Below are positions 7,201-63,010 of a stretch of DNA of 64,000 nt, in pieces (position 1 is the stretch's first letter; the number at the start of each line of letters is the position of its first letter). Source of the DNA: Lepidostoma basale (Eukaryota > Arthropoda > Insecta > Trichoptera > Lepidostomatidae); NCBI GenBank assembly GCA_022606425.2, contig JAHDVF020001045.1, positions 310,001 through 374,000 of the forward strand. Direction: 5' to 3'. The position numbers were made by a program, and so were the translations under genes. Under the pieces are notes generated by a model that saw only the letters and a list, made by a program, of their open reading frames with translations, had not been told where the DNA came from and ran no database searches.

Positions 7201-7435
7201 TTCTGATGACGAATATTTTGAATATGACTAAATCAGAAGACGGCAGCGAGCTGCCGAAACCGGTCGAAGATACAAACATTAGTGGATTATATGTTTGATG
7301 TGTTTTTGGTTAACATCGTGTGATGACTCCTTCTCGACTTCTCGGTCAAGAAGGAGTTATCACACGGTGTTACCCAAAAACACATCAAACATATTGCTGC
7401 CAACCGTGAAAATCTACGCAATTATTAGTGGATTA
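7201..7435 (+). repeat. HH element with hammerhead-like motif plus long hairpin
   Basis: The hammerhead-like motif is at 7234-7265: core CAGAAGA, one extra C, helix II GGCAG/CTGCC around loop CGAG, GAAA, palindrome CCGG, then TC. Helix I is not evident. It is followed by a hairpin, 7289-7406, with outer arms TATGTTTGATGTGTTTTTGG and the complement of CCAAAAACACATCAAACATA, and inner arms CTCCTTCT/AGAAGGAG. Confidence 0.6.
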
Positions 7436-7444
7436 TAACTAAAT

Positions 7445-7680
7445 ATTGATTATAAAAAGGTTTTTGACATTTTATTTTCACTTTTATTCAGTTTAAAGAA
7501 ACATGTTTCGGGACACAGAATCCTTCCTCGTTGTAGAAATTTTAACAGTATAATTATACTTTTAAAATTTCTACACTTTTGTGTGTAGAAACAGGTTTGT
7601 AAAAGTATCCAAAAAGTGTTGTGAAAGTACTTTGTTTCCACAAATAATGAAAATAAAAATCTTTTTAAAATGTATGTTTA
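7445..7680 (-). repeat. HH element, GTGTCCCGAAACATG family
   Basis: On the minus strand a motif at 7499-7540 has GTGTCCC, GAAA, palindrome CATG and TT. The core is degenerate (CGAGGA). Arms with AAAAAGGTTTTTGAC on the left and AAATAAAAATCTTTTT on the right are imperfect inverted repeats. A boundary-like motif, TTTCCACAAATAATGAAAAT, sits just inside the right arm. The intact relative is at 18081-18122. Confidence 0.55.
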
Positions 7681-7746
7681 GTTAATATCCACCAATTTTT
7701 TTTATAATAATAATAATAAGGATTTTATATTATTTACAATGTATCT

Positions 7747-7815
7747 TTTTTATAAACTTTGTAAACAACAACACACACTTATACAAAGTGTGTGTTGTAT
7801 ACAAAGTTTATAAAA
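7747..7815. repeat. Imperfect hairpin
   Basis: The left arm TTTTATAAACTTTGTA plus ACAACACACACTT pairs with the right arm AAGTGTGTGTTGT plus TACAAAGTTTATAAAA around a 4-5 base loop. It is followed by the CCACAACACAAAGTTATGGC boundary block that also follows HH elements at 18.2 and 23.3 kb. Confidence 0.6.
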
Positions 7816-7944
7816 CATGAAACATTAAACATCCACAACACAAAGTTATGGCGAATATATAAGAGGTTATTTACAAATTTATTTTTATTTTTATTATTAA
7901 CAATGAACTTCTGCCATGAAATTTCAAATAACAGAATTAATTCA

Positions 7945-8005
7945 AAAAGTTATTCAAATGTGAATCCTCAACACAAAGTTAAGAAGAAGAAACGAATATA
8001 TATAT
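7945..8005 (+). repeat. HH-element boundary block
   Basis: TTCAAATGTGAATCCTCAAC followed by ACAAAGTTAAGAAG matches the boundary block of the HH families at 15.5, 18.2, 23.3 and 49.5 kb. No core is present here. Confidence 0.5.
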
Positions 8006-8007
8006 AA

Positions 8008-8175
8008 AACCGGTGGTGGTCTAGGGGATAGAACGCTTGGCTCCTGATCCAGGGGGCATGGGTTCAAGCCTGGACACGACCAGGTTCCTTCTTCATAATA
8101 ATGAGCTATTTTCTGCTCACATTGAAGATTGTAAAATAAATTCTAATATCATTGATATAAATCCTTGATGTTTGT
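8008..8175 (+). mobile_element. SINE-B, full-length with A tail
   Basis: The tRNA-like head GGTGGTCTAGGGGATAGAAC carries A box TGGTCTAGGGG and B box GGTTCAAGCCT. The body includes TTCTTCATAATAATGAGCTA and ATATCATTGATATAAATCCT, then a run of A. It matches the inverted copy at 6665-6850. The head resembles a tRNA but lacks a clean cloverleaf. Confidence 0.8.
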
Positions 8176-8884
8176 CTTTTAAAAAAAAAATATATATCGT
8201 GAATTACCTTTCAATTATACTTGTGCATACTGAATATTGAAGCAAATTTTGGTAACCCTAGCCAGATGCGATCTACTTCTTATAGCATTAACACGTTAAT
8301 AAACAACCTGCGCCATCTCACTTGGCGTAGGACGTATTATTAGCCGACACATTGGCATTCGGAGTCGCTTGCCCACTTTCGAAATTCCCTGTCTGCAAGT
8401 CGGACGCGGTAGGACTGTAGTTCGCATCCTCAGTTGCATTGCGTCCATCGAATTTAAGGATCGAACCGGTCATAAAGATCTGATACAAAAAAAAAACGGG
8501 TTGCGGCCATCTTGTCAGTTCTCTGCGTTTTGGCGCCCAACGTTGGACGTCTGCGCGCGAAAGTTACCTGTTCGGAAGTCGAATTTTTTTGTACGTAAAC
8601 CGTGTTTGTTTTCATTAACCTTGTGATTTCAACATTTTGCAGCAACAGTTTTGTCAATACTCGCGTTCGATTGTTTTCAAAAAGTAATTTTCAACGATTT
8701 GTCGCAAATTTTAAAATTTAAATATCATTATTATTTGTATTAAATGATATTACAATAAGTTTCTATAATTGTTGTGTATTTACATTTAAATTGTGTACCA
8801 ATTAAGTTCAAGGGTTGCAGCTTTATTTAAATTCAAGATATTAAAAATAGTGCACTATTAATCGAACTTAAATATTGTTTTTGA
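8176..8884. other. No gene recognised; GC-richer island
   Basis: 8270-8600 is richer in GC and CpG than its surroundings and not obviously repetitive. No splice-bordered reading frame is convincing. It may be an old repeat or low-copy non-coding DNA. Confidence 0.4.
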
Positions 8885-9112
8885 TAGTTGTGGTTTTAAT
8901 TTGGTAAAAATCCATTATAATAATAAAAAACTTGATTGTTTTTTTTTCGGTACTATTTTGATTTTTTATTATTTATATGTAAAAAATAATGTAAAGAATA
9001 GTGACAAATTTGTTGACTTGCGAGGGCATTTTGAAACTGCTGAGAATGCCCTCGCAAGGCGAAGCACATTTGTCACTATTATTTTTATAAAAACCAAAAA
9101 ACAATCCCGTTT
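8885..9112 (+). repeat. HH element, hairpin family D
   Basis: A boundary motif (GGTAAAAATCCATTATAATA, 8903-8922) leads into a hairpin: AATAGTGACAAATTTG at the left pairs with CATTTGTCACTATT at the right. The inner stem TTGCGAGGGCAT pairs with ATGCCCTCGCAA. The right arm has a degenerate hammerhead-like order: CTGAGAA, T, GCC/GGC stem, GAAG, then TTTGTC. Confidence 0.6.
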
Positions 9113-9118
9113 TTAATA

Positions 9119-13075: not shown

Positions 13076-13504
13076 ATTATGAACAGACAAATCTTGGTAT
13101 GAACATCACGATAATACGCCACAAACGTGATCAATATCGTTCTACAATCAACGTATTCGCCTGATTTAGTTCAATAAACTAAAAAGACCGCTCTGGGGAC
13201 ACCGTTTTGACTAGATTGAGGAGATAAAAGCTGAATCGAATACATCATTGAAGGCCATCTCAGAAAAAGCTATCTGATTGTTTCGAGGATTAGAAAAACC
13301 GTTGAAATAAGTGCATTGTATCGGAGGGGGAGTACTTTGTATGCGATGAAATAGATTTGCAAGTATAAATACAGGTTTTTCAATTTAAAATTAAAGACAT
13401 CTTATTTTTTGTTCACAGTATTACATACTCTATAAAGGCATCAATGAAGCTAATATCTAGTGTTTTTAAGATAATCAAATGATTTTACTGAAATCTCTTG
13501 ATGG

Positions 13505-13815
13505 AAGTTCATTTTAAATAATAATTAAATAAAACGATGTTTTTTAACTACTTCCACTTTTGTCTTTATTTAGACAGCGACCGGTTTCGCCAGGTTCGCT
13601 GGCATCGACAGACTGGTGACACTATTGTAAACTTAGTCCTTTATATACATACATATCAGGGGTGGTAAACATGATTCTATACAAAAATAATCTTCAAATA
13701 TTTATGTAAAATTTTCTGAATTTAAATATTGGTATTACAGGTCTAAATAAAGTTGTCTAAATAAAGACAAAAGTGAAGTAGTTAAAAAACATCGTTTTAT
13801 TTAATTATTATTTAA
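13505..13815 (-). repeat. HH element family F, inverted repeat
   Basis: Arms at 13518-13576 and 13754-13813 are near-perfect inverted repeats (AATTAAATAAAACGATGTTT, AACTACTTCCACTTTTGTC). Boundary motif GAAGTTCATTTTAAATAATA lies at the left. The hammerhead-like motif on the minus strand is 13575-13615: helix I CAGT/GCTG, core CTGTCGA (A6 replaced by T), extra T, helix II GCCAG/CTGGC, GAAA, CCGG, TC. Only the left arm keeps the motif. Confidence 0.75.
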
Positions 13816-14644
13816 TATCTAGTGTATGTATATATTTTTTAAAATTAAGAACATTTTATAGGAATTATATAAAGTATGAGACAAATCATTGTTTACGTTT
13901 TTAATCATTTGCATAATTTTAATTTACGTATAAACCAAAATAAATATTTTAACAGTTCTGAGTAAATTCATGTTAATATGAAATAATTCATAATCAATTA
14001 TATAGTTTTTCGGATCCTTACCCTAATATGTCACAGAAAAAAATATGATAATTCAACGGGTTTGAGAATTTATCTTATGTTAAATTAAATTAAATCAAGA
14101 AATTTTCCACATTTCAGATACGAACTTTTAAGATATATTGTAATTAAACAAAAAAACATTTTTTCTTTATTTACAAAAGGCTTTTTTTTTATATTTTACT
14201 TTCGATTAAATTAGAAGTTTAATTAAATCAAAGATACAAAAACGATACATCGTATGCATGTAATATTACCATGGATTAATTATGAACTGTCCATCAATAA
14301 CGTTTAGTCATTGAAGCTATCATTTATTATCCCATCTGTCACAAGACACGTGACCATATGTTTTCGTTTTCCCTCTATAAACGAGACAACAAAATTGATT
14401 CATTATTTATGTAGCTATGACAATGAAAATAACAAACAAATTCAGATGAAAAATTCTCTTACTAAGTATATGTAAATATTGTTCTACTGAGTAGGTCTTT
14501 CAGGTTGGTATCATAAAGGATCTCATTAATTATAGCCGATTTAAGAAATAATTCTCAAACAATATGTTTATAATCTGATTCCAAATGCAATATTCATCTG
14601 GATTTTTACTTCAGTGATCTTATTTTATTAAATACAATACTTAT
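13816..14644. other. No gene recognised
   Basis: Very AT-rich. I see no reading frame, repeat or fold that I can support. Confidence 0.5.
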
Positions 14645-14800
14645 AATATAATAATATAAAGTTTAATAATAATTAATACGAATAAAAACGTAAGTTTTCT
14701 AGCAGTTTTATTATATTTTATGTGAATGACATGTTTCGCCCTTCTATGGCATTATCAAATGTGACGAAACTTCAACTCGTTGCAGTTTATATACACTAGT
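14645..14800 (-). repeat. HH element family G, one arm
   Basis: AATACGAATAAAAACGTAAG leads into GTTTTCTAGCAGTTTTATTA. A minus-strand motif at 14722-14759 has core TTGATAA, extra T, GCC/GGC stem, GAAA, CATG, TC. C3 and G8 are both changed (T and A), which keeps a pair. Helix I is weak (about 2 bp). The second arm is missing. Confidence 0.6.
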
Positions 14801-16410: not shown

Positions 16411-16499
16411 GTAATATTTTCGACAAATATTTGCTGGGACTCTATTTATTATTTCTTTAGTTCGAATTTATTTATTATTTCTTTAGTAAGGATGCAAAA

Positions 16500-16625
16500 T
16501 CCCAAATTCAATAATTAGTACGAATAAAAATATTTGATAATGCATTAATAAGGCAAAACATGTCATTCATATAAAGTATAATCAAACTTAGAGAAATCAT
16601 ACCTTTTCATTCGTATTAATTACAT
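16500..16625 (+). repeat. HH element family G, right arm
   Basis: ATTTGATAATGCATTAATAA then GGCAAAACATGTCATTCATA: core TTGATAA, extra T, short stem, AAAA in place of GAAA, CATG, TC. It ends with CATTCGTATTAAT, the outer arm of family G. Confidence 0.55.
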
Positions 16626-16929: not shown

Positions 16930-17168
16930 TATTTATTGTTTTTTGAACAATGATATAAAAATCCATATTAAATAAAAGTCTGTTTTCTAGAAGTTTTACT
17001 ATATTTTGTGTGAATGACATATTTCATCTCTCTAAAGCATTATCAAACGTCATTTGATAATGCCCTTAGACAGGCGAAAAAATATTTTGATCAGAAAAAA
17101 TATAGAATCAGAAAAAAATATCTAGAAAACAGAAGTTTTAATTCGTATTAATTAAACATGTTTTTATT
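16930..17168. repeat. HH element family G, inverted pair
   Basis: Boundary ATGATATAAAAATCCATATT, then GTCTGTTTTCTAGAAGTTTT at the left and TCTAGAAAACAGAAGTTTTA with ATTCGTATTAATTAA at the right form an imperfect hairpin. The left arm (minus) and right arm (plus, 17049-17085) both keep TTGATAATGC, but the GAAACATG part is mutated to GAAAAAATA. Confidence 0.6.
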
Positions 17169-18060: not shown

Positions 18061-18080
18061 CATTTAACTGTTAAAATTCA

Positions 18081-18215
18081 TACACTGAAGAAGAATATTT
18101 TGTGTCCCGAAACATGTTTGTAAAAAGTGCAAAAAGTGATAATACAATATTATAAAAAAGTTATTCAAATGTGAATCCACAACACAAAGTGATGGCGAAT
18201 ACAGAAGAAAAAAAA
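18081..18215 (+). repeat. HH element with good hammerhead-like motif
   Basis: At 18081-18122: helix I TACA/TGTA, core CTGAAGA (matches CUGANGA exactly), extra A, a loose stem GAATATTTTGTGTCCC, GAAA, CATG, TT. It is followed by an A-rich stretch and the boundary block TTATTCAAATGTGAATCCAC, AACACAAAGTGATGGCG (to 18198). The opposite arm is not obvious. Confidence 0.65.
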
Positions 18216-23269: not shown

Positions 23270-23760
23270 ACACTTGCACTTATAATTTCTTCTATATTCG
23301 CCTTCACTTTGTGTTGTGGATTCATATTTGAATAAATATAATTATACTTTGTATTACAACACTTTTTATTTTCCCTGAGCACAGACATGTTTCGGTTACA
23401 AGTAACCTTTATCAATGTATACAATTTTAACAATAAATAATACGGGGTGATCATTTACATACTAAAATGGGGTGGAGTTATGTATAAAAGTAGAGGGGGT
23501 TTAATTAGGATTGAGGAGAGGGGAGATGTAACGGGAAAATTTAGAACATGGGAACTGAATTTAAATTGAACAGGTTATTTTTTATTATTTCTTTAATTTT
23601 AATGAATTTTCTCATTTGTAAAATTTCTAAATTATTTGTTAAAATTGAGTACATTGATAAAGGTTACTTGTAACCGAAACATGTCTGTACTCAGTGAAAA
23701 AAAAGTGTTGTAATATAAAGTATTATATAATTATATTTATTCAAAGAAGTTTAATGTTGT
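23270..23760. repeat. HH element family H with two opposed hammerhead-like motifs
   Basis: Inverted arms at about 23325-23425 and 23645-23745. The plus-strand motif, 23647-23692: helix I GAGTACA/TGTACTC (7 bp), core TTGATAA (a T-A pair replaces C3-G8), extra A, helix II GGTTAC/GTAACC with loop TT, GAAA, CATG, TC. The minus-strand motif, 23377-23422, is the same with a 4-bp helix I. The outer left carries the boundary block (TTCACTTTGTGTTGTGGATT on the plus strand). About 220 bp of unrelated AT-rich spacer separates the arms. Confidence 0.8.
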
Positions 23761-24300: not shown

Positions 24301-24599
24301 AAATTTACTGTGATTGTTAAAAAATCCAACAGGTAGTTTGAAGTTGATTCAATGAACTAAGACAAGGGATGAAACTTACACGAAGTGTAAAAAGTTCCAT
24401 AATTCTGACTGCAGAAACTTGAATAACTCAGAAAAGCTGAAAGTTCAACGGTAACTCTCGGAGTTGGGTGACCTGGCATTTAATGGTATTGTAAAGTTAT
24501 TGTTACCACTATATTCTTGTTCTGATTTAAAGTTTTAAAGTGATTTTGATTACCAGATAAGAGCTGTTAAATTGTCACCAATTTATTTATTTTTTCTTG

Positions 24600-24810
24600 A
24601 ACAATGATGTTAAACTCCATATCAAATAATGAATACGAATGAAAACGTCAGTTTTCAGGAAGTTTTATTTTATTTTATGGGAAAGACTTGTCTCGCCCTT
24701 CAAAGGCATTATGAAGGCCTTAGAAGGCCGACACATGTCATTTCCATAAAATATAATAAAACTTCTAGAAAACTGACGTTTTCATTAGTATTAATTTTTG
24801 TCACCAAGTT
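24600..24810. repeat. HH element family G, hairpin
   Basis: Boundary GATGTTAAACTCCATATCAA (24606) is followed by arms AATACGAATGAAAACGTCAG and CTGACGTTTTCATTAGTATT, with AGTTTTATTTTATTTTATGG against CCATAAAATATAATAAAACT. The loop region is AAGGCATTATGAAGGCCTTA. The cores are damaged (GTCTCGCC, CCGACACATGTC). Confidence 0.65.
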
Positions 24811-25500: not shown

Positions 25501-25796
25501 TGAAAAAAGCGTACATGTAATGTTTTTACATTTCAATATTGTGATATAAAATTAATATACCCATATCCCATGACGACTAAGGAATTCCCGGAACGGATGT
25601 TGTTAAGATATTTCATTAAAGATTTCACAAGAATTTTGTCTATTATCTACCAACATAATCACATATGCATGTGTAAAAACTCAGGTACATGCGTCATATA
25701 TAATACAGATATAATTACATTTGTGGTGAGCCCCTACATAATAGTAAATATATATTAACATTATCTTCATTCTTATGACGTTTTTGTTGTTACTTA

Positions 25797-26005
25797 AATA
25801 ACGATGTAAAACTCCACATTAAGTATCTATTAATGAGGAAAACGTACATTTTCTAGAAGTTTAGAATATTTGGGATACAAGTAAATGACACCACCTTAAA
25901 AGGGCATAAAATATGTGTATTTTTTTATAATTCCTCATTAAGACGAATAATGTCACTTCTTATATCTTCTATAAAACTTCTAGAAAACATACGATTCCCG
26001 CAATA
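25797..26005. repeat. HH element family G, degenerate
   Basis: GATGTAAAACTCCACATTAA boundary, then AAACGTACATTTTCTAGAAG and, at the right, CTTCTAGAAAACATACG. The central cores are no longer recognisable. Confidence 0.5.
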
Positions 26006-26094
26006 GTTATTTGTAAAATATAAAAATAATAAAATCCCATCAAAAATATCTAAATCAATAAAATATATCAAATTTATAAATCGTAAATTATATG

Positions 26095-35150: not shown

Positions 35151-35154
35151 AATA

Positions 35155-35365
35155 ATCTGTTAAATTAAATAAACTTTGTTTTATGTATCACAATTGTATT
35201 TTTATTTTACGCGACAGCTGCTCCGTCAACCTATGTTGACATCATCAGGTGTTACAATGATGTCAACATAGGTTGACAAAACAGCTGTCGCGTAAAGCAA
35301 AAATACAATTGTGATACATAAAACAAAGTTTTTTTTTTAATTTAACAGTTTATTATTATATATGT
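35155..35365. repeat. HH element family E, inverted repeat
   Basis: Arms AACTTTGTTTTATGTATCAC and GTGATACATAAAACAAAGTT, then TTTTACGCGACAGCTG and CAGCTGTCGCGTAAA. The minus-strand motif (35222-35255) is core CTGATGA, extra T, helix II GTCAAC/GTTGAC, damaged box (GGAGC), CAGCTG, TC, with a partly paired helix I (TTACAC against GCGTAA). The plus-strand arm has core AATGATG, AAAA, CAGCTG, TC. The two motifs nearly abut. Confidence 0.7.
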
Positions 35366-35459
35366 TAAAGTAATGTATCATGGTGTATCAGCCAAACAAT
35401 GGACTATTCAATTTTATTTATATAATCTGAACGTTGTATTTTTTAATTTACTCGTATAC

Positions 35460-35695
35460 AAGCTTGTTTGTTAAATAATTATGTAAAACTCCATATTAAG
35501 TTATTATTACGAATGAAAACGTCTATTTTCCAGAAGTTTTATTGCATTTATGTGAATGACATGTTTTGCCTGTCTTTGGCAAGACATTTGATAATGCTTT
35601 AGACTATACCATATATGTCATTCACATAAATTGTAATGAGATTTGTAGAAAACGGATGTTTTCATTCGTATTTATTATTATATCTAATAATTTAT
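35460..35695. repeat. HH element family G, inverted pair
   Basis: Boundary TTATGTAAAACTCCATATTA, arms ACGAATGAAAACGTC and GATGTTTTCATTCGT, and ATGTGAATGACATGTTTTGC against CATATATGTCATTCACAT. TTGATAATGC (35589-35598) persists, but the two arms have lost different core parts. Confidence 0.65.
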
Positions 35696-35727
35696 ATAAT
35701 TTCTGTAAAAACTAAACATTTGTATAA

Positions 35728-36330
35728 TAATTAAATAAAACGATGTTTTTTAACTACTTCCACTTTTTTTTTGTGAATGTATACTTAAACTTGTATACGA
35801 AATTCTGGATTTTCACCAAAGGGTGGTCAATTCACTTGATCATCCATATTCAGTTTGCGTCTTCGTCTCTATTGAGATACAATTAAACTTCCACTTTTGT
35901 CTTTATTTTGACAGCGACCGGTTTCGCCAGGCTTGCTGGCATCGACAGACTGGTGAGATTATTGTGAACTTAGTCCTTTATATACATACATATCAGGGGT
36001 GGTAAACATGATACTATAAAAAAATAATCTTCAAATATTTATTTAAAATTTACTGAATTCATAAATATTTGAAGATTATTTTTGTATAGAATCATGTTTA
36101 CCACCCCTGATCTGTATGTATATAAAGGATTAAGTTAACAACAGTGTCACCAGTCTGTCGATGCCAGCGAGTCTGGGGAAACCGGACACTGTCGAAATAA
36201 AGACAAAAGTGGAAGTAGTTAAAAAACATCGTTTTATTTAATTATTATTTAAAATGAACTTCCATCAAGAGATTTCAGTAAAATCATTTGATTATCTTAC
36301 AAACATTTGTAATTTAATCATATTGAATTC
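35728..36330. repeat. HH element family F, long inverted repeat
   Basis: The whole block is an inverted repeat centred near 36055, with arms of about 180 bp or more (AGGGGTGGTAAACATGAT versus ATCATGTTTACCACCCCT). The left arm's minus-strand motif, 35912-35952, has the family F order CAGT, CTGTCGA, T, hairpin, GAAA, CCGG, TC, GCTG. The right arm's motif, 36158-36200, is damaged (CTGGGGAAACCGGAC). The boundary ATTATTTAAAATGAACTTCC is at 36242-36261. A SINE-C copy is nested in the left arm. Confidence 0.75.
35768..35886 (-). mobile_element. SINE-C nested in HH element, 12-bp duplication
   Basis: In minus orientation it runs TTAATTGTATCTCAATAGAG to GTATACATTCAC plus an A tail. ACTTCCACTTTT occurs at 35756-35767 and 35887-35898. 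This string is single in other family F copies, so it is a target-site duplication and dates the SINE after the hairpin. Confidence 0.85.
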
Positions 36331-37294: not shown

Positions 37295-37560
37295 AATTTT
37301 AAATTATAATTAAATAAAACGGTGTTTTTTTAAACTATTTCCACGTTTATCTTTATTTATTTTACATAATTATTTAAAGATTATTTTTATATAGAATCAA
37401 TCAGTTTGCAATAGTGTCAGCAGTCTGTGATACTAGCGAGCCGGTCGCTGTCAAAATAAAGACAAAAGTGTAAGTAGTAAAAACATCGTTTCATATAATT
37501 TTTATATTTATTGTGTCTTGAAAAATTGTGTCAAACTCCATATAAAAAATAATACAAAAA
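37295..37560. repeat. HH element family F, decayed inverted repeat
   Basis: Arms TAATTAAATAAAACGGTGTT and AACATCGTTTCATATAATTT. The right arm keeps CTAGCGAGCCGGTCGCTGTC with the helix II and GAAA section deleted. It ends in a TGTGTCAAACTCCATATA boundary. Confidence 0.6.
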
Positions 37561-38963: not shown

Positions 38964-39484
38964 TCACAATAACATCACGTATACAATACATTGTTCAGAA
39001 TCCCGCGAGCACCTCACGGATAGCGTATGATGTATGACTTTACCACAATATTTATCCATGTGTTGCCTCAGAATCTTGGCATCAGATTTTGCCAACATCT
39101 CGATCCGCTCGCGATTCGTAATCTCCTCGGAATGTTGACGAGCCGATGTGAGCTTGCACGAATCGGGGGTATTTTTAGGATATGACCTACACTCTTTCTG
39201 ATGAACTTGGCGCACTATTCCACAGAGAATGCACAGATCAATACAGATGGAACAAAACATTGAATCACCGTCTCATTCCGAATTCTCGAGAGCCCTTTAC
39301 GATTCTGCAACATGTGACAACGATATGACGCAATTAGACTTCTTTATTTACTAGTAATGCAAACGCGTTTTAGCAAAACATTTTACAATCTAAAGTAGAT
39401 TGAAATAGCTCATTCTTTCAAAGAAATATTATAAGCAAATGAATGAAGTCATATCGAATGTAGAGGTATTTATAAAAATATAAA

Positions 39485-39960
39485 ATAAATAATAAAAACT
39501 TTGTATTTAACCACGGTATGGTTATTTTAATTGATGCCAAATAGTTTCGCTTGAACCCAAGCTTCATCAGGGCAGTATAACGTTGAATCTAGCCGTCTCG
39601 GATTTGGACATTTTCAGTGTCAGTGAAGCAATATTCCTAAAAAAATATTACAAATTCTGGAAAGAGTACTGCCTCACTGACGTCTTTGTTTTGTTTTATC
39701 TTTTTATCTTTGTAACACCGTTTTGTGTCCAAATGAGTCGCCTAAATGTTTTTCGTTTGTTATGTCTCATTTGTGTATTATGTATAAATAAATAAATAAA
39801 TAAAAACAACATGTTGTTATTCTGCCCTGATATAAAAACAGTTCGGTCAAGCGAAACTAGTTGGCATCAATTATAATAACCATACCGTGGTTAAATACAA
39901 AGTTTTTTTTTAATTTATTTTATATTTTTAAAATGTCTAACCACGAAGTGAGTGCTTCAT
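39485..39960. repeat. HH element family J with perfect core
   Basis: Inverted arms (ACTTTGTATTTAACCACGGT, ATGGTTATTTTAATTGATGC versus their complements at 39865-39905) surround about 230 bp. The minus-strand motif 39535-39574 has helix I TGCC/GGCA, core CTGATGA, extra A, helix II GCTTG/CAAGC with loop GGTT, GAAA, CTAT, TT. The plus-strand arm (39823-39867) has a damaged core CTGATAT but the palindrome CTAG intact. The spacer has short broken frames only. Confidence 0.75.
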
Positions 39961-42299: not shown

Positions 42300-42520
42300 A
42301 CACCAAAGATTTATTAGTTTTTCAAGCACTTTATTTTGTTACAACCAACCGGTTTCGCGCCCGCCGGAGCTTCTTCAGGGTTACAAAAGAATTCTAAGAG
42401 ATTTTGCTTAATTATCCAAAACCTTTTAAAGTGTATTTTGTAACCCCTTCGACGGGAGCGAAACCGGTTTGTTGTAACAAAATAAAGTGGTGTAAAAACT
42501 AATAAAAGTGTATTAATATT
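42300..42520. repeat. HH element family K, in host intron
   Basis: Inverted arms CACTTTATTTTGTTACAAC and GTTGTAACAAAATAAAGTG. The minus-strand motif 42343-42382 has helix I AACC/GGTT extended by G-T pairs, core CTGAAGA (fits CUGANGA), extra A, helix II near GCTCC/GGGCGC with one mismatch, GAAA, CCGG, TT. The plus-strand arm keeps GGAGC, GAAACCGG, TT, but its core is changed to CCTTCGA. The inner spacer is about 45 bp. Confidence 0.75.
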
Positions 42521-42544
42521 ATACACACAAATTTCTAAATTGTG

Positions 42545-43250: not shown

Positions 43251-45490
43251 AATTTCCAAATGTGTGGTCCAGAACCACCAGCTTGCGTCCAAAACGCCAT
43301 GATGACCAAAGACAAGAAACCGTTCACATATACGCCAGGAGGGTTGGATCTATCCCAGATTAGGACACCCAGCATGGCCCGGAGACTCAATAAGCAGCAG
43401 CAGCATCAAGAAGACTTAGAGAATCCTGCGTACTTCAGGCAACCAAGTGTCAATGGAGGACCCTCTGTGCCTGCTCCTCCTCCACCACCTCCCCCTGGAC
43501 CACCCCCGCCGCCGCCCCTAGTCATTAGTGTTAACAAACCAAATAAAGCTGTCAATGATGGAGAGAGGCCGGAGATTGTTATACCAGAAAATCCAATTGG
43601 AATGCTTCGCAAGACTCACAGTCCTTATCACTGGGAATCTGAGGAATCCAATAGACTCCAACAGGGATCTATTCCCAAGTTTATTGAGAAGTCTGCAACT
43701 CCTAGTCCTGTTGCCCCGCAAATGAGGAGACCTCCTCCGCAACAATTCTCTCAACAGGCGCCTCAGCCGTCGCCCCCTCATTTCAACCAACAACCCCCTC
43801 AATTTAACCAACAACCCCCTCAATTTAACCAACAACCTACACAACAGTTTTCCCCACAGTTATCCCAACAATCACCGCAGACTTATGGGCATCAGCAACC
43901 TAGTCCTCAAATATCATCACGATATGAAAATAATCTTCCACAACAAAATAATAAATCTGGCGCAGAAAGTCCAATTTGGAAACCTGAGCCAAAGTATCCT
44001 AATTCTCCAAAACCCAACAATGTATATTCTCCCGTTCCTAATGCACAACAAAATCAAACCCCTACTAAAGATACACTTCAAAGACAAGATTCACAATTCA
44101 ATCTCAGTCCATCTCCCTGGGGAAAAGAATCACCATTCTCGAATGCGTCATCTACAACTAGCAGCAGCAACAATCAAACATTATCGCCCAGTTGCGATAC
44201 AAGCAGCGTGAGGTCAACTCCAGTCTCATCTGCTAGTCCGTGGAAACAAGAAGTTCGGGGCTCTCCGATGCAAAACAATGTTAAATCTCCTGTACAATCA
44301 CCATACAATGATGGGTATAGGGTGACTCCTATTCACATCGAAGCGAGAGACATGCAGGTAAATCCAAATTCACCCGCACAATCGGTGAGAAGTCCTAATC
44401 AATCGCCTTATGTAGAGGTTCAGCAAAGCTCTCAGAATGCCCCTCCATGGAGGCAACAGCAAGCGGGAACACCGAATGTCCAACCAATGTCACCGGTGAA
44501 TAACGTGCGTGTTATAAATCAAAATCAACCTCGCAGCCCTACTTATGTTCAATCGCCTAGTTCGGCGTACATAGTCAAATCACCGAGTCCCCCAAAGAAC
44601 AATAACGTTTACTCCAATATGCAACCAGAATCCGACGAAGTTCGATATCAATCACACATGACCATTCCCGTTACACCGCGAAAGACCAGAAATGAGGATA
44701 TCCAAGAACAACCCGTCCTTAAGTTGGTGGAAAGCCCCAAGGAAAACTTACCTTGGGTGCGTGGCCAAAATACAGTCAACAAGGCAGTACCACCTCCGCC
44801 CTGGTGCCAACGATCAGAAAGCCGAAAAAGTCTTCCGAGAGACTCGTTTGACCAAAATGATGGCGAAAGTCCTCAAACTCCCTGGGGCCAAAGGACTTTA
44901 GATAATAGAAAAAGTCTTCCGAAGGAACCACCACAAAGTTCTGAACCACAACCACCTTGGGTTACAGAAAACCGAAGATATGAAACGTTACCACGCGCCC
45001 AACCTGGTAAAGTGTCATCGATATCTACACCGACCGGACAAATCATTCAGCACGTAAGATCTTGTGATAGCCCTGGTAGAGTTATCCCTATTCAAATGGA
45101 AGTAACCAAACAGGATATTTCACAGAATAACAACTCAGGTAACGCTCAAATAAAACAGGGGCCACAAGGCAGAAATCAGCAACAGCCACAACTTCGAATA
45201 ATCATCGATATGAACCAGCAAGGTCAACGCGGGCAGCCGGCACAGGGAGGCCCTAACATCTCCTTTCAACAAACACAGCCTCAAATGCAGCAAAATAAAC
45301 CCAATGTCTCAATGCAGCAGCCGCAACAGCACATCTCGAGGGTTCTAACTCCCCAACTGATGAAGATGGAAGGAGCGACGGTAGGAAGTCCGTTGAGGCA
45401 GGAGCCTTCGCCGAACTTTCAGCAGCAGCCAAAGACCAGGATTATTCCCATCCAAATGGAGCCATCAAGTCCCGTTGTTACATCGCCTAG
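43251..45490 (+). CDS. Host gene large exon: Pro/Gln-rich disordered protein, possibly Zasp/ALP-like
   Basis: A 2240-base exon open throughout. It begins in phase 0 after ATGCTTTCAG (NFQMCGPEPP) and ends at CGCCTAG before GTAAAT, leaving two bases (AG) for the next codon. If the intron were retained, a stop follows at once (45492-45494). Numbering from Met at 43260: KPFTYTPGGLDLSQIRTP (20-37), polyproline 71-86, a QFNQQPP tandem repeat (about 176-194), eight Trp motifs such as SPWGKE, SPWKQE, PPWRQQ, TPWGQR and PPWVTE, RKSLPRD/RKSLPKE, and three VIPIQME-like repeats. It is low in hydrophobics, so probably a disordered scaffold with short binding motifs. With the next exon's SRSFRVLQ tail it recalls ALP/Enigma (Zasp) Z-disc proteins, but no PDZ or LIM domain is present here. 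Confidence 0.9.
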
Positions 45491-48296
45491 GTAAATATGA
45501 TAATTCACACTTAAATAATACATTACAGATACATTTACAAATATTTCAGGGCAAACTTCTGTATTAACGGCAGTTGTATCAAAACGTTGTAATTTTATAA
45601 AGCTATGCAGCTACAGAAATTGTTATAACAAGTTATTTCAGTTAAAAAAAAAACTTTGAGTAGAGTTTGAGAGGCCTAAAAAAAATCAATTTTTTTAAAA
45701 AATGAAATGAAATTTATCTTCAATTTCACTTATTTGAGTAGCTATTTCGAGTGCTCGTAATATAATTAACATGTTTTTAATAATTATTCAAAGTGAATTC
45801 CGTATATTATACGCTTTGAAATTTATAAAAGAACATAGTAAATAAAATATACAGTCTAACTAATCACTCTACCGACGCGACAGTGACGTCATTTTTAAGG
45901 ATTGATTGTATCTCAATAGAGATGAAGATGTAAATTGTTTTTTGGAAACAGAATATGGTGGTCGAGGCGTTTACAGGACTTATGACCTGTGTTTGGTTGG
46001 GTTAAGCGATCGCTTTATGTAAACGCCTCGACTACCATATTCTGTTTCCAAAAAACAATTTACATCTTCGTCTTTATTGAGATAAATCAATTCTTAAAAA
46101 TGATTAACCCACAATGGGTATAATCCAGTATTTGTCTACAAATATTGGTTACATTTAAGGTGACGTCATTGTTGGCGCTGTTTTTATTGAAACTAAAATA
46201 TTTGTTATTTAATAGGTTCTTGATTATAAAGTGTTTTTCAAAATTTAAATTATTTTTCTTTGAATTGTTAGGGAGTCTATTAACGAAAGCATATATGAGA
46301 ATAAAATAAAAAATGCACTTCAAAAAATTTCCAGGTACAGATTCGAATGCCTCATGTGCTTGTCAATCATTCCCTCAGTGTCACCCGCACTTTCCAAGTT
46401 ACAACTAAACTCGTAATATCTTAAATGTTTAATGTTTGGTGGTCATTGCGTGTTTCTGGTGAAATGTCGTTTTGCTGGACTCTTCTCATCATCTGTGAAT
46501 GTTGTTTCCCTAATGAATGATCTGTTTCCTCTTTCAGCAGACGGAATTGACAGGCTGTCTTAAGCCGGGCCCCCTTACCGACCTACGAGAGGTGTTTTAT
46601 TTGTGCCTTAATCAGCTTCTAGTCGATGTTAAAACTAGTGCTTTGCTTCTAAAATATGCATACAGCCTTGTCATCGAATTTTGATTTAAATTATTACATA
46701 AATTTATTGAAATGTATACCATATGAGAAAAACAATTAAAATATACTAATATCACGTAAAAAAGTACTTAACATATCATTAATTTTAATGATATGTTAGA
46801 GGTGAATAAAACAATTATTGTTACGGTTTGCCGACAATATGACAGAAAATATTAAATTGTTTATAAAAAAATATCTGATATAACTAACATTAAATTACGA
46901 AAATGAGAATACGAAATAATATAATTTTTCAGAAATATTTTAAAGCTCAAATTTTACATTCTTGATTGGTACATCCAATAGACAATTGAGAAACACTCTT
47001 AAGCTGAAAAGTTATGCATAATTTTGCAGAAAAATGCTTATATTAGTATACATATTTTATTCTTAAATGGATTTTCAGCTAATTCGTTTATATAATTATA
47101 ATCGTAGCAGTGCTTTTCTACCTATGCACGAGCAATTTTTTTTGGAAGTTTCAGAAAAGTTGGCTCTTGATATTTACATAAATCATAAAATTAAATTGTA
47201 AATTTTCTATTCAGTGCATACATAGTATGCATACCTTACATAAAGACGTTTTTTAGATAATATTTTTTTAAGATAGGATTTTTTAATATTACTGTTTAGA
47301 ATTGTAAGATAGAACTTTTATGTTCAATTTGCATGTTTTCAAGTAATTGCTTGTATTGAAAACAAAATAAGTTTATTTACATTTTTCTATATTTATTAAA
47401 TGATTAATTCATTAATTTATAATGATAATAATAATTAGAATATTGAGCAGAAAAATGATTAATTAAATAATGAAAATTATATTTTACATATTGGTATACC
47501 TGTGATATTCTGACATGGAAGTAAATTTAATTATTTTTAAATAATATTCTTATTTGAAAATAATTAATAATTTAGCATATACGTGTTTAACTAAATATAG
47601 TTTCCTAAGAATAAATAATTCTGGAAATTTTACTTAAGCCATTGTGTTTGCTAAGAACACTAAGAGTTTTATATAAGCATTGTGTATTAATCAGTCGATG
47701 TTGTGTGTTTGTTTGAAAATAATTTAATGTAAATATGTGTGTTTATCATTTTTCATATTCCCATGCTTGTTTATTTCATCTTATTTTTCTGTTTGAATTA
47801 CTAATGTCATATTTATAATTTTTATTGACCATAAAACGATAAATTGTAAAATGTACAACATAAACTCAATTGCTCTCGCACGTTTTAAAACGATTTTTTA
47901 TTTATTTGAGGTTTGATATTGAACATATTTGAAATCAGAAGATTTACAATTGTTGATAAAAATCTGTGTACATTGCCTTTACGACCAAATTGATGCCGTA
48001 TGATATTAAATCACATAAAATTAACTGATATTTTTTTTATAAAACAATATAAAGATACCTATTGTACGAGTATACAACCCTATCAATTACATTTAAAAAA
48101 AATCTTAAGTATAACATATTTCATATTTAATATATAATAATACATACGTACAATAATTGAAAAGTAGTAAAAAATCACGAAATCATCATTTAAAAAAAAA
48201 GAATTAACCTTATTGATTTTCAAAAACTGTCCAGATTTTAAATTTCGAAAAAAAAAAATCAAAAACATTTATTTAATTAGTGCATTCATTTTTCAG
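45491..48296 (+). other. Intron of host gene
   Basis: A 2806-base AT-rich intron from GTAAAT to TTCATTTTTCAG. It contains a foldback SINE-C pair (45897-46165). A GC-richer patch, 46325-46630, includes CCTCTTTCAG but no supported exon. From 46630 to 48290 I see nothing. Confidence 0.65.
45897..46165. mobile_element. SINE-C foldback pair
   Basis: A plus copy (AGGATTGATTGTATCTCAAT, GGCGTTTACAGGAC) meets a minus copy (GTAAACGCCTCGACTACCAT, CATCTTCGTCTTTATTGAG) through a short ATCGCTTTAT centre, giving arms of about 95 bp. It continues to CAGTATTTGTCTACAAATAT at the right. Confidence 0.65.
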
Positions 48297-48959: not shown

Positions 48960-49135
48960 TATCTGTCTTATTTTCAGTTATATACAATACTTACACCTGA
49001 AGATGGAGGTCACCTCCGAAACATTGTCGTGTTTTAATATTTATTTTTATAAAGATATTAAATTGGAATATATACAGTATTGTTTTTCAAATCATAATTT
49101 ACAATGGAGTTCCACAGTTTTAACGCCTTAACTTT
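48960..49135 (+). repeat. HH element with perfect hammerhead-like core (family L)
   Basis: Motif 48993-49032: helix I ACAC/GTGT, core CTGAAGA, extra T, helix II GGAGG/CCTCC with loop TCA, GAAA, CATTG (3-bp helix III), TC. Every conserved hammerhead position is present. It is followed by an AT-rich stretch and the boundary TTTACAATGGAGTTCCACAG, TTTTAACGCCTTAAC (49090-49124). It lies 560 bases after the host stop codon on the same strand. Confidence 0.75.
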
Positions 49136-49165: not shown

Positions 49166-49485
49166 TGGTATCACTTATAGTAGAATTTTTATTCCATCCA
49201 AAGGGGATGATGGTTCAGAAAAGGTTGGGAATTTATGGTTTATATGTTAGTTATTACTTGATAAAAATATAATGTAGAAGGATGAGAATCATCCAAAACA
49301 TGTCTGTGAAGAGTGTAATAAAGAGTGGTATCACTTATAGTAGAATTTTTATTCCTTCCAAAGGGGATGATGGTTCAGAAAAGGTTGGGAACTTATGGTT
49401 TATATATTAGTTATTACTTAATAAAAAATATAATGTAGAAGGATGAGAATCATCCAAAACATGTCTGTGAAGAGTGGAATAAACT
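49166..49485 (+). repeat. Two direct 160-bp HH monomers in tandem
   Basis: Units 49166-49325 and 49326-49483 are about 95 percent identical. Each carries core ATGTAGA, extra A, helix II GGATGA/TCATCC with loop GAA, AAAA (GAAA mutated), CATG, TC, then TGTGAAG. A downstream boundary block TTATTCAAATAAGAAATCTC, AACACAAAGTGAAGG lies at 49513-49547. This is the only direct tandem array of HH units in the window. Confidence 0.8.
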
Positions 49486-53060: not shown

Positions 53061-53290
53061 CCATCTATTAAGAACTATTTTTTTTTCATTTTTGGGAAGG
53101 CTTACACCTTCATCATCGGGAGAACGATAAAACTTTATATCGTTTTCCCGATGATCAAAGTGTAAGCCTTCGAAACATGTCGAGAAAAATAAACTCAAAA
53201 TTGGAAAAAACAGTGTTTTAATTAATAAAAATTCGTCATTATGGAATTCCACAGTATTAAGTTAACGCCTTGAGTTGATCTTAAATCAGT
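53060..53290. repeat. HH element family I, inverted repeat
   Basis: Arms GAAGGCTTACACCTTCATCA and TGATCAAAGTGTAAGCCTTC meet near 53132. The plus-strand motif 53143-53186 has helix I TTTTC/GAGAA, core CCGATGA (U4 is C), extra T, helix II CAAAG/CCTTC (GAAGG in the left arm gives 5 bp), GAAA, CATG, TC. It is followed by AAATAAACTC and the boundary ATTATGGAATTCCACAGTAT, TAAGTTAACGCCTTGAG. Confidence 0.75.
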
Positions 53291-58915: not shown

Positions 58916-59750
58916 ATTTCAATTAATTGTGCCACTAAGACGGTTGTAAAGAATGGACTGTCACACTTTTTTTTCCTGACATACAGGAAAGGCGGACATT
59001 TCACGTGGCCGACATTCAATATTTCATTTATTTGATCGTGCTGCGTTTTCCTCAGTCTTCCTCTTTTTTAGTTTTCCTTCCATTTAGCTTTCATTTAAAT
59101 CGTTAAAAAATCCCTTTTTAACCATTCTCTCTATGGGTCCAAACCATTTAAATTAAAGAGTATTTAATTGTTTTTTTTACGTTTCGTTAACATATATTTT
59201 TTTAGCATTCGTCATTTATTCTTTACATGTGTCCAAACCATCTTAACGATCATTCGCACCGCATTCACTTCTTATATTTTAATTCGACACACTATCATAC
59301 ACAGAGTATTCACACATTCGTCTAAGAGATCTCATTTCCACTGCATTTATTCTACTTTCATCCTTCTTTTGCCAGTTCTATGCTTCGCTTCCATACATAA
59401 GGGTTGGTACAAGAACACCATTGTGCACTGCCATTTTAGCTTTTTTGGATTGGTTTTTGTTTGCGATGACAACTTTAAGTGCACCATTCACTTTGTTGCC
59501 TGCCCTAACCCTTCTTTCAATATCTCTCTCCTCTCCACCACTCCCAAATACACGAACTCATCTACTTCCTCCAAATTTCCACCATTCACGCTAATGTTGC
59601 AGACTGTCATGATTTCTTCTCTTTCAAAAATCATTCCCTTGGACCAATTCACATTCATCATTTCGCATGTATACCTGATACATACTATTCATCAGGACTT
59701 GTAGTTCATGCTTGTTGTCAATGATTTGTTCCTTTTGTCCCATAATTGTA
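58916..59750 (-). pseudogene. LINE-T fragment, longest upstream reach
   Basis: Minus strand. It has the altered 3' junction of the 58205 copy, then a broken middle, then from 59270 to 59750 SVCDRVSN, NGSLMYGSEA-like words, GNKVNGALKVVIANK and, near 59620-59700, EEIMTVCNISVNGGNLEE and FELVQGND. It extends 5' of most copies, to about 59750, where an HH family F element starts. Confidence 0.7.
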
Positions 59751-59752
59751 AT

Positions 59753-60000
59753 AATTATTAAATAAAACGATGTTTTTTTAACTACTTCCACTTTTGTCTT
59801 TATTTCGACAGCGACCGGTTTCGCCAGGCTCGCTGGCATCGACAGACAGGTCCAGTCAGACTGGTCCAGACTGGACCAGTCTGTCGATGCCCGTTTTTTT
59901 AATTATTATTTAAATTATTATTTAAAATGAACTTTTATTTAATTATTATTTAAAATGACCTTCCATCAAGAGATTTCACTAAAATTATTTGATTACCGTA
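59753..60000. repeat. HH element family F, rearranged
   Basis: The left arm (AATTATTAAATAAAACGATG, ACTTCCACTTTTGTC) carries the intact minus-strand motif 59803-59850 (GCTG, TC, CCGG, GAAA, GCCAG/CTGGC, T, CTGTCGA). The middle has a perfect dyad GACTGGTCCAGACTGGACCA and GTC. The right arm is mostly deleted, leaving two boundary copies ATTATTTAAAATGA. Confidence 0.7.
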
Positions 60001-60099
60001 ATTGTAATTAACAATAAACCCTTCCTCTAAAATTGATTCCTCCCCCTTTTTATTTATTTTTTCGTTTACTATATAAGTAACGAATTTGTCTCATTTCAT

Positions 60100-61320: not shown

Positions 61321-61460
61321 CCCGAGGGTAGGTGAAATCGAGGTGTGTGCATGATTCTATGTATGAGTGTGTAGGAAGAAAGGAAAACATGTCAGGAAAG
61401 GACAGTGTGGCAGACCATTCTTTCTACCCACCTCTTCGAAAGGACGGCATGATGGTAAGT
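61321..61460 (+). pseudogene. LINE-T 3' fragment
   Basis: AGGTGTGTGCATGATTCTAT, GAAAGGACAGTGTGGCAGAC style words and AAGGACGGCATGATGGTAAG: the LINE-T end on the plus strand, diverged. Confidence 0.55.
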
Positions 61461-61699
61461 TTATTTTTTTTAAATTGTAGTGTATATAAAAATTGGTTGC
61501 TTTTTATTGTCTGCACTTTAAGACTTTTGAATTATTGTGCTAATGCATGCTTCACATAAACCACTCGGGGAACGATTTTACGGAGAGTTGTGGGTGACGT
61601 TTCAGACGGATAAAATTATTATAACGCGGTAGTCATTTGTGCCTCGTGAGTTGATCAAGACGAAAAATATTATTCATCGAATACGAAATCACTTTTTTT

Positions 61700-61935
61700 T
61701 GTAATAATTAAATAAAAGGATGCTTTTTAACTACTTCCACTTTTGTCGTTATTTAGACAGCGGTCGGTTTCGCCAGGCTCGCTGGCATAGACCACTCTGT
61801 AGATGCCAGCGACCCTTGCGGAACCGGTCGCTGTCGAAATAAAGACAAAAGTGGAAGTATTTAAAAAACATCGTTTAATTTAAGTATTATTTAAAATGAA
61901 GAGATTTCAGTAAAATCATTTGATTACTTTTTTGG
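61700..61935. repeat. HH element family F, compact inverted repeat
   Basis: Both arms are present with almost no spacer. The plus-strand motif 61794-61835 has CTGTAGA (free position 7 differs from other family F copies), T, GCCAG/CTTGC, GGAA, CCGG, TC, GCTG. The minus arm has GAAA but CCGACC for the palindrome. The boundary ATTATTTAAAATGAAGAGAT (about 61888) has a 9-10 base deletion. Confidence 0.75.
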
Positions 61936-61959
61936 GAATTTTTTTTCCATCTTATTTGA

Positions 61960-62135
61960 CATATTCGTCTTCTTCTCCAGCCTCGATCTCTCCACAGCTG
62001 GATACATACCTCCTTCAAACGTTTCCACTCCTTATTCACTGTCTAGATATTGAGGTTACGCCATCGGCCCATCTTTTCTGTGGTCTTCCAAAACCTATTT
62101 TGTTTTGGTCTATGGTTTCTTTTTGATTAACCCGG
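61960..62135 (-). pseudogene. LINE C-terminal fragment, related to 3925
   Basis: CGATCTCTCCACAGCTGGAT, CCACTCCTTATTCACTG and CATCGGCCCATCTTTTCTGT match the minus-strand LINE tails at 3925 and 4395 (words like RWADG and CIQLWRD when translated). Confidence 0.5.
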
Positions 62136-62469
62136 GTCTCTATTTGTTTATTAGGGCGCACCGACGCTTATTCTTCAGCCTCGCTCGTTAACTCCTTAGA
62201 CCTGTCCCTCGCCCACCTAGGACTGATTTTATTAGTTATTTCATTTAAGCAAATCAAAAGCGACCATATTATATTTAGTAAAAGCAAATAAAAGCGATTT
62301 GGTACTACATATAATATTTGGGGGTGTGGTGAGAGTTGAAAGACGGTGGGTAGGCGGGAGGGAGTCCGATATCCCTCGTGACGTAGCTTTGATAACGTAG
62401 ACTCGTGTCGGTTAGAAGAAAATTCCCTCACCAAATATGTATAGTTTCGTATGAATCACGATTCCCAGT
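62136..62469. other. No gene recognised
   Basis: A CTCGCTCGTTAACTCCTTAG, ACCTGTCCCTCGCCCAC stretch at 62180 resembles part of the R1-like 3' UTR near 55415. Otherwise unassigned. Confidence 0.35.
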
Positions 62470-62560
62470 TATGACAGGCAGAACGTATGGACGGGCGCAC
62501 TGTTCTATTCTGTCTCACTTCTCGATCTTCTATATTCATATATCGTCACACACATACTGA
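62470..62560 (-). pseudogene. LINE-T 3' fragment, very decayed
   Basis: ATGACAGGCAGAACGTATGG, CGCACTGTTCTATTCTGTCT and TTCATATATCGTCACACAC loosely follow the LINE-T 3' end on the minus strand. Confidence 0.4.
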
Positions 62561-62594
62561 TTATTTGGCATTCTCTTGTGGATATTTATTCATA

Positions 62595-62690
62595 TTTTTT
62601 TATAAACTTAAGGCGTTAACACTGTGGGATTCCATTAAAAAATTAAAAAAACAATGTTTTAAATCATAAAAAAATGTTCATTGAAACAAG
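62595..62690. repeat. HH boundary motif, family I type
   Basis: ACTTAAGGCGTTAACACTGT then GGGATTCCATTAAAAAATTA and CAATGTTTTAAATCATAAAA: the family I boundary in reverse, without the hairpin. Confidence 0.5.
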
Positions 62691-62734
62691 TTTGTAGTTC
62701 ATTGTTTTTTTCCGAAACACTATGATACTTCAAC

Positions 62735-63010
62735 ATTATTAATTGTTAAATAATAAAACACTGTTTTTATAGTATCACAATTAAAATTTTTTCATTTTTC
62801 TGTTTCTTGCAACAGCTTTTTCGTCAGCCTATGTTGACATCATCAGGTGTAACAATAATTTTTACAGCTCTCTAAATTAATTTGCTTGATATTTCGAACC
62901 TTAATGTTTATTTGAAAGTTAATTTTAGCAGCTGACAAAAATTTTGTAACACCTGATGATATCAACATAGGTTGATGAAAAGCAGGGTTTTACCATATAA
63001 CTTAACAGTT
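62735..63010. repeat. HH element family E, two opposed motifs
   Basis: The minus-strand motif at about 62828-62866 has CTGATGA (perfect), extra T, helix II GTCAAC/GCTGAC, GAAA, then AAGCTGTTGC. The plus-strand motif at about 62949-62990 has CTGATGA, extra T, helix II ATCAAC/GTTGAT, GAAA, AGCAGG. Both have TTGTAACAC or TTGTTACAC before the core. The stems differ but stay paired. Confidence 0.7.

Follow-up and report, generated by a model that had tools for sequence, protein, structure and literature searches.

Outward-facing pairs of hammerhead-like motifs in Lepidostoma basale mostly carry one long and one short 3' end, suggesting two-sided target priming by Penelope-like elements

Results and discussion

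A 64,000-nucleotide (nt) stretch of the genome of the trichopteran Lepidostoma basale (GenBank assembly GCA_022606425.2, contig JAHDVF020001045.1, positions 310,001 to 374,000; hereafter the window) contained many copies of a short motif with the layout of a hammerhead ribozyme, sorted here into variants lettered A to M. We propose, at a probability of about 0.78, that these motifs are minimal type I hammerheads located near the 3' ends of Penelope-like elements (PLEs) and that their head-to-head pairs are formed by two-sided target priming with two start sites. A tail of about 45 bases was present on one end of nearly every pair, which suggests that both target strands start copying. The analysis bears on the route by which PLEs insert and on the reason for so many inverted copies, and all counts refer to this one genome.

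One long and one short end in most pairs

Neighbouring motifs no more than 600 nt apart were counted in 264 kb, comprising the window and twenty 10-kb loci at round coordinates, and were divergent in 12 cases, convergent in 3 and tandem in 3 (strand-shuffle p 1e-4). The outer (3') ends of the copies were fixed and the inner (5') ends varied from copy to copy. Variant A, mapped on one real copy, ended 70-83 nt after the GAAA in 23 of 51 copies, 119-127 nt after it in 12 and elsewhere in 16, and variant C ended at 67-78 nt in 24 of 52 rows, at 115-121 nt in 21 and elsewhere in 7. Two discrete 3' ends about 45 nt apart, as in the optional tail of PLEs, were therefore present, and by analogy with the anole element of PMC11167929, as described in excerpts of that study, they may be reverse transcriptase (RT) start sites.

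Ends were typed in same-family head-to-head neighbours of nine variants with the ribozymes facing outward, giving 79 pairs of which 10 were untypable. Among the 69 evaluable pairs, 60 were long/short, nine were short/short and none was long/long, compared to an expectation under independence of 33.9 mixed and 13.0 long/long pairs (P 5e-11). The loci at round coordinates plus the window, with 41 pairs typed, contributed 31 long/short, 5 short/short and 0 long/long of 36. Long/short pairs by variant were A 13/14, B 4/4, C 15/17, D 2/2, F 2/2, H 21/26, I 2/2, J 1/1 and K 0/1, with E, G, L and M outside the typing. No count of long and short ends per inverted pair was found in open-licence papers.

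Several choices define these numbers. For ten variant A pairs the ends came from the first mapping, since a second reference broke the alignments, and without this swap the result was 55, 8 and 0 of 63. The variant H pair L045 (67/62) was excluded because its right end coincides with the limit of the retrieved DNA; including it as short/short changes the result to 60, 10 and 0 of 70 (P 1.4e-10). Variant C pairs were selected visually from the tabulated ends, while L088-L092 were picked for back-to-back GIY-YIG matches and were thus inverted pairs by choice, their ends not being a criterion. L007 and L036 (contig C2) are the same place, and L036 entered the variant A end count and was kept out of the pair typing and of the upstream-reach, start-codon and variant H core counts. 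The arm reaching further upstream was the tailed one in 9 of 16 pairs and the tail-less one in 2, with 5 ties (sign test 0.065), and no rule is claimed from this. At L030 (321-1001) a nest of insertions was seen in which inverted variant K arms enclosed variant H and D copies, and at L009 (3354-3960) three variant C pairs were adjacent, the middle one being short/short and more diverged.

Inverted repeats could also result from self-priming, in which a palindrome lets a single nucleic-acid strand fold back and copy itself, as proposed for rotifer PLEs with an antisense RNA template in the sections of PMC3846280 used here; in another form the first cDNA is folded back. Near-symmetric, palindromic centres beside the ribozyme in many pairs (L052, L054, L055), high arm-arm identity (e.g. 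99.8% in L091), unequal arm lengths, which a fold-back loop could also give, and the nine short/short pairs all agree with such a process. A fold-back copy stops where its template strand began, however, and both arms should therefore have the same 3' end, whereas 60 of 69 pairs differed, with discrete ends and none long/long. Self-priming is thus considered unlikely.

Target-site duplications

Fifteen pairs were compared for repeats between their own flanks, and 12-14 identical nt were found in seven as first set (L088, L089, L091, L092, L052, L056, L057), against at most 9 nt in 210 mismatched flank combinations. Re-setting the boundaries of the 13.5-kb pair of the window, the only one among the 15 so treated, revealed 13 nt (TAATATCTAGTGT) and brought the pairs with target-site duplications as in PLEs to 8 of 15. 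L066, which sits in a (TA)n run, was left out of the test.

Duplications in about half of the tested pairs, together with short inverted repeats, would also be expected of DNA transposons resembling miniature inverted-repeat transposable elements, with a chance hammerhead-like string in the terminal repeats. This origin is scarcely credible given the systematic difference of about 45 nt between the two ends, inner ends that vary by copy next to fixed outer ends, and L066, whose arms enclose RT and GIY-YIG domains rather than a transposase, although no search aimed at a transposase gene with these ends was made.

Association with Penelope-like elements

A search of the genome for GIY-YIG gave at least 62 places (150 of 542 candidates scored), and the 1,054 nt downstream of the first 20 sites listed were searched with R1, the covariance model described below. 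A same-strand hammerhead at E<0.001 was located 359-824 nt downstream of 13 of the 20 sites, 12 of them at 359-593 nt and belonging to variant C (seven) or variant A (five; L071, L081, L083, L084, L085). The remaining site, L072, had a same-strand variant D motif at 824 nt (8.5e-6) and a weak A motif (0.019). A motif was discernible by eye in L082 with a score of only 0.41, the sole match in L077 was on the opposite strand, and L068, L069, L070, L078 and L086 had no R1 match in the 1,054 nt after GIY-YIG.

L066 and L067, chosen for their open frames, are the same element (99.6% identity over 3,295 bp) and have a 758-codon open reading frame (ORF), in which the PLE domains RVT_1 (1.4e-13) and GIY-YIG (6.6e-5) were identified for L066. 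The ORF is flanked by inverted arms of about 450 bp with an outward variant C hammerhead in each, one of the L067 copies scoring lower (29.2 bits). Hammerheads at PLE termini were found for variants A and C, the link for variant A being the same-strand GIY-YIG upstream in the five loci above, where that domain was read. In L063 and L064 two variant A ends pointed the same way. Homologues of the L066 ORF numbered 1,343 at E<=1e-3 among 7,995 scored; few of the 120 listed carried an organism name, all of these were insects, and the best named was Phthorimaea operculella at 43% identity.

The earlier note on this DNA had placed the motifs in a separate non-autonomous superfamily, and this was not shown, since variants A and C terminate elements of the PLE type (RT plus GIY-YIG). 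A similar view, in which a retrozyme-like hammerhead superfamily has only the motif in common with PLEs, would account for the short copies without an ORF and for the near absence here of an ORF link beyond A and C. It is nevertheless improbable, more so than self-priming, given that variants A and C were located at the 3' ends of PLEs, that eight of the nine typed variants have the long/short geometry (K, with one pair, does not) and that metazoan retrozymes are tandem in the excerpts of PMC7229834 whereas 12 of 18 close neighbours were divergent here. For variants other than A and C, PLE membership is suggested by the common geometry and motif. A PLE start codon in helix II, as in the anole element, was considered for the 31 variant A copies with intact CTGAAGATGGAGG and, as the frame was open through the tail only in L008 and L043, is suggestive only.

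Motif layout and copy number

The model R1 (44 positions) was built from 16 representatives, four of which were window sequences (7228, 13573, 23648 and 39533) and therefore match by construction. It returned 20 window matches at E<0.06 from about ten variants, 16 of the 20 outside the training set. At seven places in the window the earlier note had described a common order of CTGANGA-like core, one nucleotide, hairpin, GAAA, short palindrome, T plus H and often a strand complementary to the bases ahead of the core, and all seven were matched: 23648-23691 + (E 5.8e-8), 39533-39576 - (1.9e-7), 48991-49034 + (4.1e-7), 42341-42384 - (7.9e-7), 13573-13617 - (1e-6), 18079-18124 + (8.3e-5) and, as the weakest, 53142-53187 + (0.053). 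Read directly, the order holds at most of these places, helix II being weak at 18081 and 53143 being the poorest. In the 264 kb R1 gave 57 matches at E<0.01, including 11 training rows. The Rfam hammerhead models gave zero matches in the window, even at E<=10.

A first descriptor scan found 5 core-plus-stems matches in the window, of which one is probably fortuitous; 20 Markov sequences averaged 0.35. In a 288-kb set made up of the window, 200 kb of loci at round coordinates and 24 kb of loci fetched for the motif there were 34 matches scoring >=10, against 0, 1 and 1 in three controls. Across the 769-Mb genome to which the window belongs, GAAACATGTCGTGT occurred 6,064 times and its reversed letters twice, and the looser pattern CTGANGAN{9,20}GAAACNNGTH, with a CTGANGA-type core, occurred 32,412 times compared to 70 for the reversed pattern. 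Many motif copies were short and without an ORF.

Ten variants were present in the window (A', C, D, E, G, H, I, J, K and L), and the count of at least ten families given in the earlier note is therefore true of motif variants. Its type I hammerhead order, minimal palindromic helix III, PLE link, many inverted-repeat copies and very high copy number were upheld, while the families being unrelated and forming a separate non-autonomous superfamily were not.

That the families are not unrelated was seen from their 3' tails, which are common to J and K, B with J and K, F and I, H and M and probably A and L; the variants thus outnumber the lineages. When the 135 nt that follow the ribozyme were aligned locally, the comparison joined J-K, B-J, B-K, F-I and H-M well above shuffles. 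The A and L tails have a common TATGGAATTCCACAGT stretch, and these two variants are probably related. A common tail of A and H received no support from the alignment, and a G-H match was left uncounted as it may be a nested H copy.

Helix pairing and core sequences

Hammerhead position numbering is used throughout. Helix II was examined in all 100 listed pattern matches (83 distinct rows) with no selection on pairing. Leaving a single nucleotide unpaired behind the core gave 88.4% pairing over the first three cells of the 83 rows, compared to 43.4% with none and 47.4% with two, and shuffled 3' halves gave a mean of 60.5% and a maximum of 70.7%. Over the whole structure of the 16 representatives 87.5% of cells were paired against 57.0% when shuffled, and there were 39 double-sided changes against 12.9 in shuffles. 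The helix II test is the cleaner one because the 16 representatives came from a scan that rewarded pairing. One unpaired nucleotide follows A9, and in helix I only 76.6% of cells pair. A CUGANGA plus GAAA core with helices I and II, as in type I hammerheads, was found, with C and G breaking the core. The numbering used, and the view that a palindromic helix III works in dimers, agree with the papers cited here.

The variants were distinguished as A (ACAC CTGAAGA, CATG, TC), B (CTGAGGA or CTGAAGA, CATG), C (CTGTCGA with A6U, CCGG), D (CTGATGA, CAGCTG), E (CTGATGA, CTAG-like), F and I (CTGACGA and relatives, CCGG, TT), G (CAGAAGA with U4A, CCGG), H and J (TTGATAA, CATG), K (CTGAAGA, CATG), L (CCGATGA) and M (CTGATGA, CCTG). 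In H and J positions 3 and 8 are both changed, from C-G to U-A. Among 74 ribozyme-reaching variant H arms, 50 of 61 readable cores were U3-A8 and none was C3-G8. The A6U of C and the U4A of G fall on conserved core positions, and for these two variants the term hammerhead ribozyme is therefore a claim about fold. In the excerpts of PMC3088659, U3-A8 in place of C3-G8 is a natural, compensatory change that is active in vitro, and a natural A6C hammerhead is slow. The same compensatory core-pair change is found here, and unlike the cases given there it is the rule within a high-copy family (variant H).

Variant C starts were read from 51 rows, 20 of which run past the reference. Of the 31 beginning inside it, 5 had their first nucleotide precisely at helix I, which lies 30 nt from the start of TATATAAAG, and 8 were within 4 nt of that point, as if the RNA began there; 15 of 51 variant A copies began 7-15 nt upstream of helix I. 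Starts at the predicted cleavage site were limited to one exact and one 2 nt after it, and with only 2 of the 51 variant C rows at or near this site, ribozyme-cleaved RNA as the usual template is unsupported as the main route. Insertion of the anole element persists with ribozyme mutants in the sections of PMC11167929 drawn on here. The A6U core on nearly identical ORF copies and the rarity of cleavage-site starts point, weakly, to a ribozyme dispensable for insertion, as with the anole mutants.

Proposed insertion mechanism

In the proposed two-sided route, transcription would start at or just upstream of the hammerhead, and the PLE protein (RT plus GIY-YIG) would make a double-strand cut with a stagger of about 12 bp. 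Should the junctions on either side both be 3' ends of the element, cDNA synthesis on its RNA would have been primed by both target 3' ends, one using a site about 75 nt after the GAAA and the other a site about 45 nt further on, which gives the tail. The two cDNAs would meet head to head and leave an inverted pair that faces outward and is tailed at one end only. Two full-length cDNAs of a short RNA, end-joined, would give the compact palindromic copies, and for variants without a linked ORF the PLE protein could be supplied in trans. Both-strand priming, the transcription start, the supply in trans and any ribozyme activity are inferred. The excerpts of PMC11167929 describe an anole PLE protein that cuts and extends both target strands with RT starting at two adjacent internal sites, the tail being the stretch between them.

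Our guess is that both cDNAs come from one RNA. Arm-arm identity was 99.3% in L088 and 99.8% in L091, compared to 97.1-98.0% and 98.3-99.0%, respectively, between the arms and L066, and arms closer to each other than to L066 fit a common source, one molecule being unproven. In L092 the arms were no closer to each other (97.6%) than to L066 (97.6-97.7%).

Several observations weigh against two-sided priming by PLEs as set out here. The anole study, in the sections consulted, has the start site alike on both strands (PMC11167929), and with no strand difference there the per-insertion rule needs further explanation. Nine of the 69 pairs were short/short, some pairs could be segmental duplicates, and 7 of 15 pairs lacked a 12-nt flank repeat, some of them with uncertain ends or adjoining insertions. 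Only variants A and C, with one D motif (L072), had an ORF link to PLEs in the 20 sites examined. No sense promoter was seen before the ORF in L066 or L067, where the upstream arm points outward, and a source copy of the inverted ORF-bearing elements was not found.

A stricter form, to which we give an even chance, is that PLE integration is obligately two-sided and that the long start site serves no more than once per insertion, forbidding long/long pairs. One simple cause would be the synthesis of both cDNAs on a single RNA, with each start site occupied by one protomer of an RT dimer. If so, short transcripts starting at the hammerhead would suffice for very many ORF-less head-to-head copies, and the ribozyme core, with insertion not dependent on cleavage, may drift (A6U, U4A).

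Comparison with known systems

Minimal PLE hammerheads were already known, and motifs of this kind in PLE pseudo-long terminal repeats (pLTRs) were reportedly described by Cervera and de la Pena in 2014 and Lunse et al. in 2017. PLEs with pLTR hammerheads, from excerpts of PMC7761336, likewise have a minimal type I motif with a reduced helix III near the PLE end and thousands of scattered copies, presumed to work as dimers. Unlike them, the present genome has tens of thousands of motif copies, many in outward-facing pairs, and variants with U3-A8 (H, J) or A6U (C) cores.

The rotifer element Pen2a_Av and its relatives, as presented in parts of PMC3846280, resemble the pairs described here in their inverted pLTRs, target duplication (9-10-bp), optional tail (31-bp) on one of the inverted pLTRs and TATA plus initiator. 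Those are single elements, whereas here a per-insertion rule holds over 69 pairs of nine variants, with duplications of about 12 bp and a tail of about 45 nt. The Anolis Poseidon element PAc (PMC11167929, in excerpt) also has an RT plus GIY-YIG ORF, a hammerhead, which in PAc is at the pLTR/ORF junction, and two adjacent internal RT start sites that delimit a tail, with both target strands extended; the PAc work was in vitro, and in the sections available no strand difference in start site is reported and inverted pairs are not taken up. Metazoan retrozymes (PMC7229834, in excerpt) have in common type I hammerheads, a weak helix III in some, and a non-autonomous nature. They form tandem 150-450-bp repeats and circular RNAs, as against the head-to-head pairs and the two variants at PLE ends found here, and the 12 divergent, 3 convergent and 3 tandem neighbours within 600 nt do not have the retrozyme arrangement.

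In the portions of the two PLE studies drawn on, the 2013 rotifer paper favoured self-priming (PMC3846280) and the 2024 anole paper left later insertion steps unvalidated (PMC11167929). The rule of one tailed end, seen in one genome, yields a prediction that is simple to count, tells two-sided priming apart from self-priming and is open to checking wherever a genome has PLEs. Natural hammerhead families with altered cores (U3-A8 and A6U, the latter beside an open-ORF PLE) pose directly the question of whether the ribozyme is needed.

Features of the window

Features are listed by position with the strand where one applies; ends are given in nt after the GAAA and E values are those of R1.

7228..7271, +, variant G hammerhead-like motif, core CAGAAGA (U4A), 33.9 bits, E 2e-6, training row
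7494..7536, -, weak hammerhead-like motif facing the variant G copy, 22.3 bits, E 0.0026
13451..13463, left copy of the target-site duplication (TAATATCTAGTGT), identical over 13 nt to 13813-13825
13464..13812, variant C head-to-head pair, left long-end arm with hammerhead, right short-end arm from at or near the predicted cleavage site; arms against the L066 reference 13471-13588 (-, end 118) and 13754-13815 (+, end 75)
13573..13617, -, variant C hammerhead-like motif, core CTGTCGA (A6U), E 1e-6, training row
13813..13825, right copy of this target-site duplication
14722..14764, -, variant H hammerhead-like motif, TTGATAA (U3-A8), TATATAAA upstream, E 3.1e-6
16465..16622, variant H pair, long/short, ends 115/68; motif 16528-16570 +, E 0.012
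16930..17154, variant H pair, long/short, ends 111/68
18079..18124, +, variant K hammerhead-like motif, tail common with J by J-K tail alignment, E 8.3e-5
23282..23745, variant J head-to-head pair, long/short, ends 112/67, TTGATAA core in both arms; motifs 23378-23421 - and 23648-23691 + (the latter a training row)
24580..24799, variant H pair, long/short, ends 115/70; motif 24702-24745 +, E 0.013
25787..26013, variant H pair, long/short, ends 105/72
35153..35407, variant D pair, short/long, ends 70/114; motif 35207-35254 -, E 0.0096
35464..35679, variant H pair, long/short, ends 105/70
35724..36295, variant C head-to-head pair, short/long, motifs 35910-35954 - and 36149-36193 +; left arm interrupted by an insertion at about 35768-35886
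37296..37505, variant C pair departing from the rule (short/short), ends 78/71
39469..39932, variant E inverted repeat; hammerhead 39533-39576 -, E 1.9e-7, training row
42312..42523, variant I head-to-head pair, one end not evaluable, ends 44/66; motif 42341-42384 -, E 7.9e-7
48991..49034, +, variant A' hammerhead-like motif, CTGAAGA, CATTG helix III, E 4.1e-7
53142..53187, +, variant L motif, CCGATGA, E 0.053, tail resembling A
59750..59995, variant C pair, short/long, ends 72/117; motif 59807-59851 -, E 8.9e-6; right arm without ribozyme
61702..61926, variant C pair, short/long, ends 70/117
62805..62852, -, variant D motif, E 0.048

Two weak hammerhead-like matches in tandem, 161 nt apart, were located inside a direct repeat (49266-49310 and 49427-49471 +). 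The ORF at 30613-33285 + (891 codons) was considered as a PLE and rejected, its RVT_1 (2.3e-27) and Exo_endo_phos_2 (2.3e-8) domains being those of a non-LTR retrotransposon, and a 752-codon open frame at 43236-45491 + had zero Pfam matches. The inverted repeats 63092-63266, 35887-36216 and 61695-61896 scored below the cut-offs of microRNA models, and the matches of the last two probably reflect hairpin shape only because both are inside variant C pairs. Near-threshold tRNA-like matches were recorded at 6422-6493 - by ARAGORN and Rfam (29.0 bits) and at 37909-37979 - by Rfam only, and both are possibly tRNA-derived repeats.

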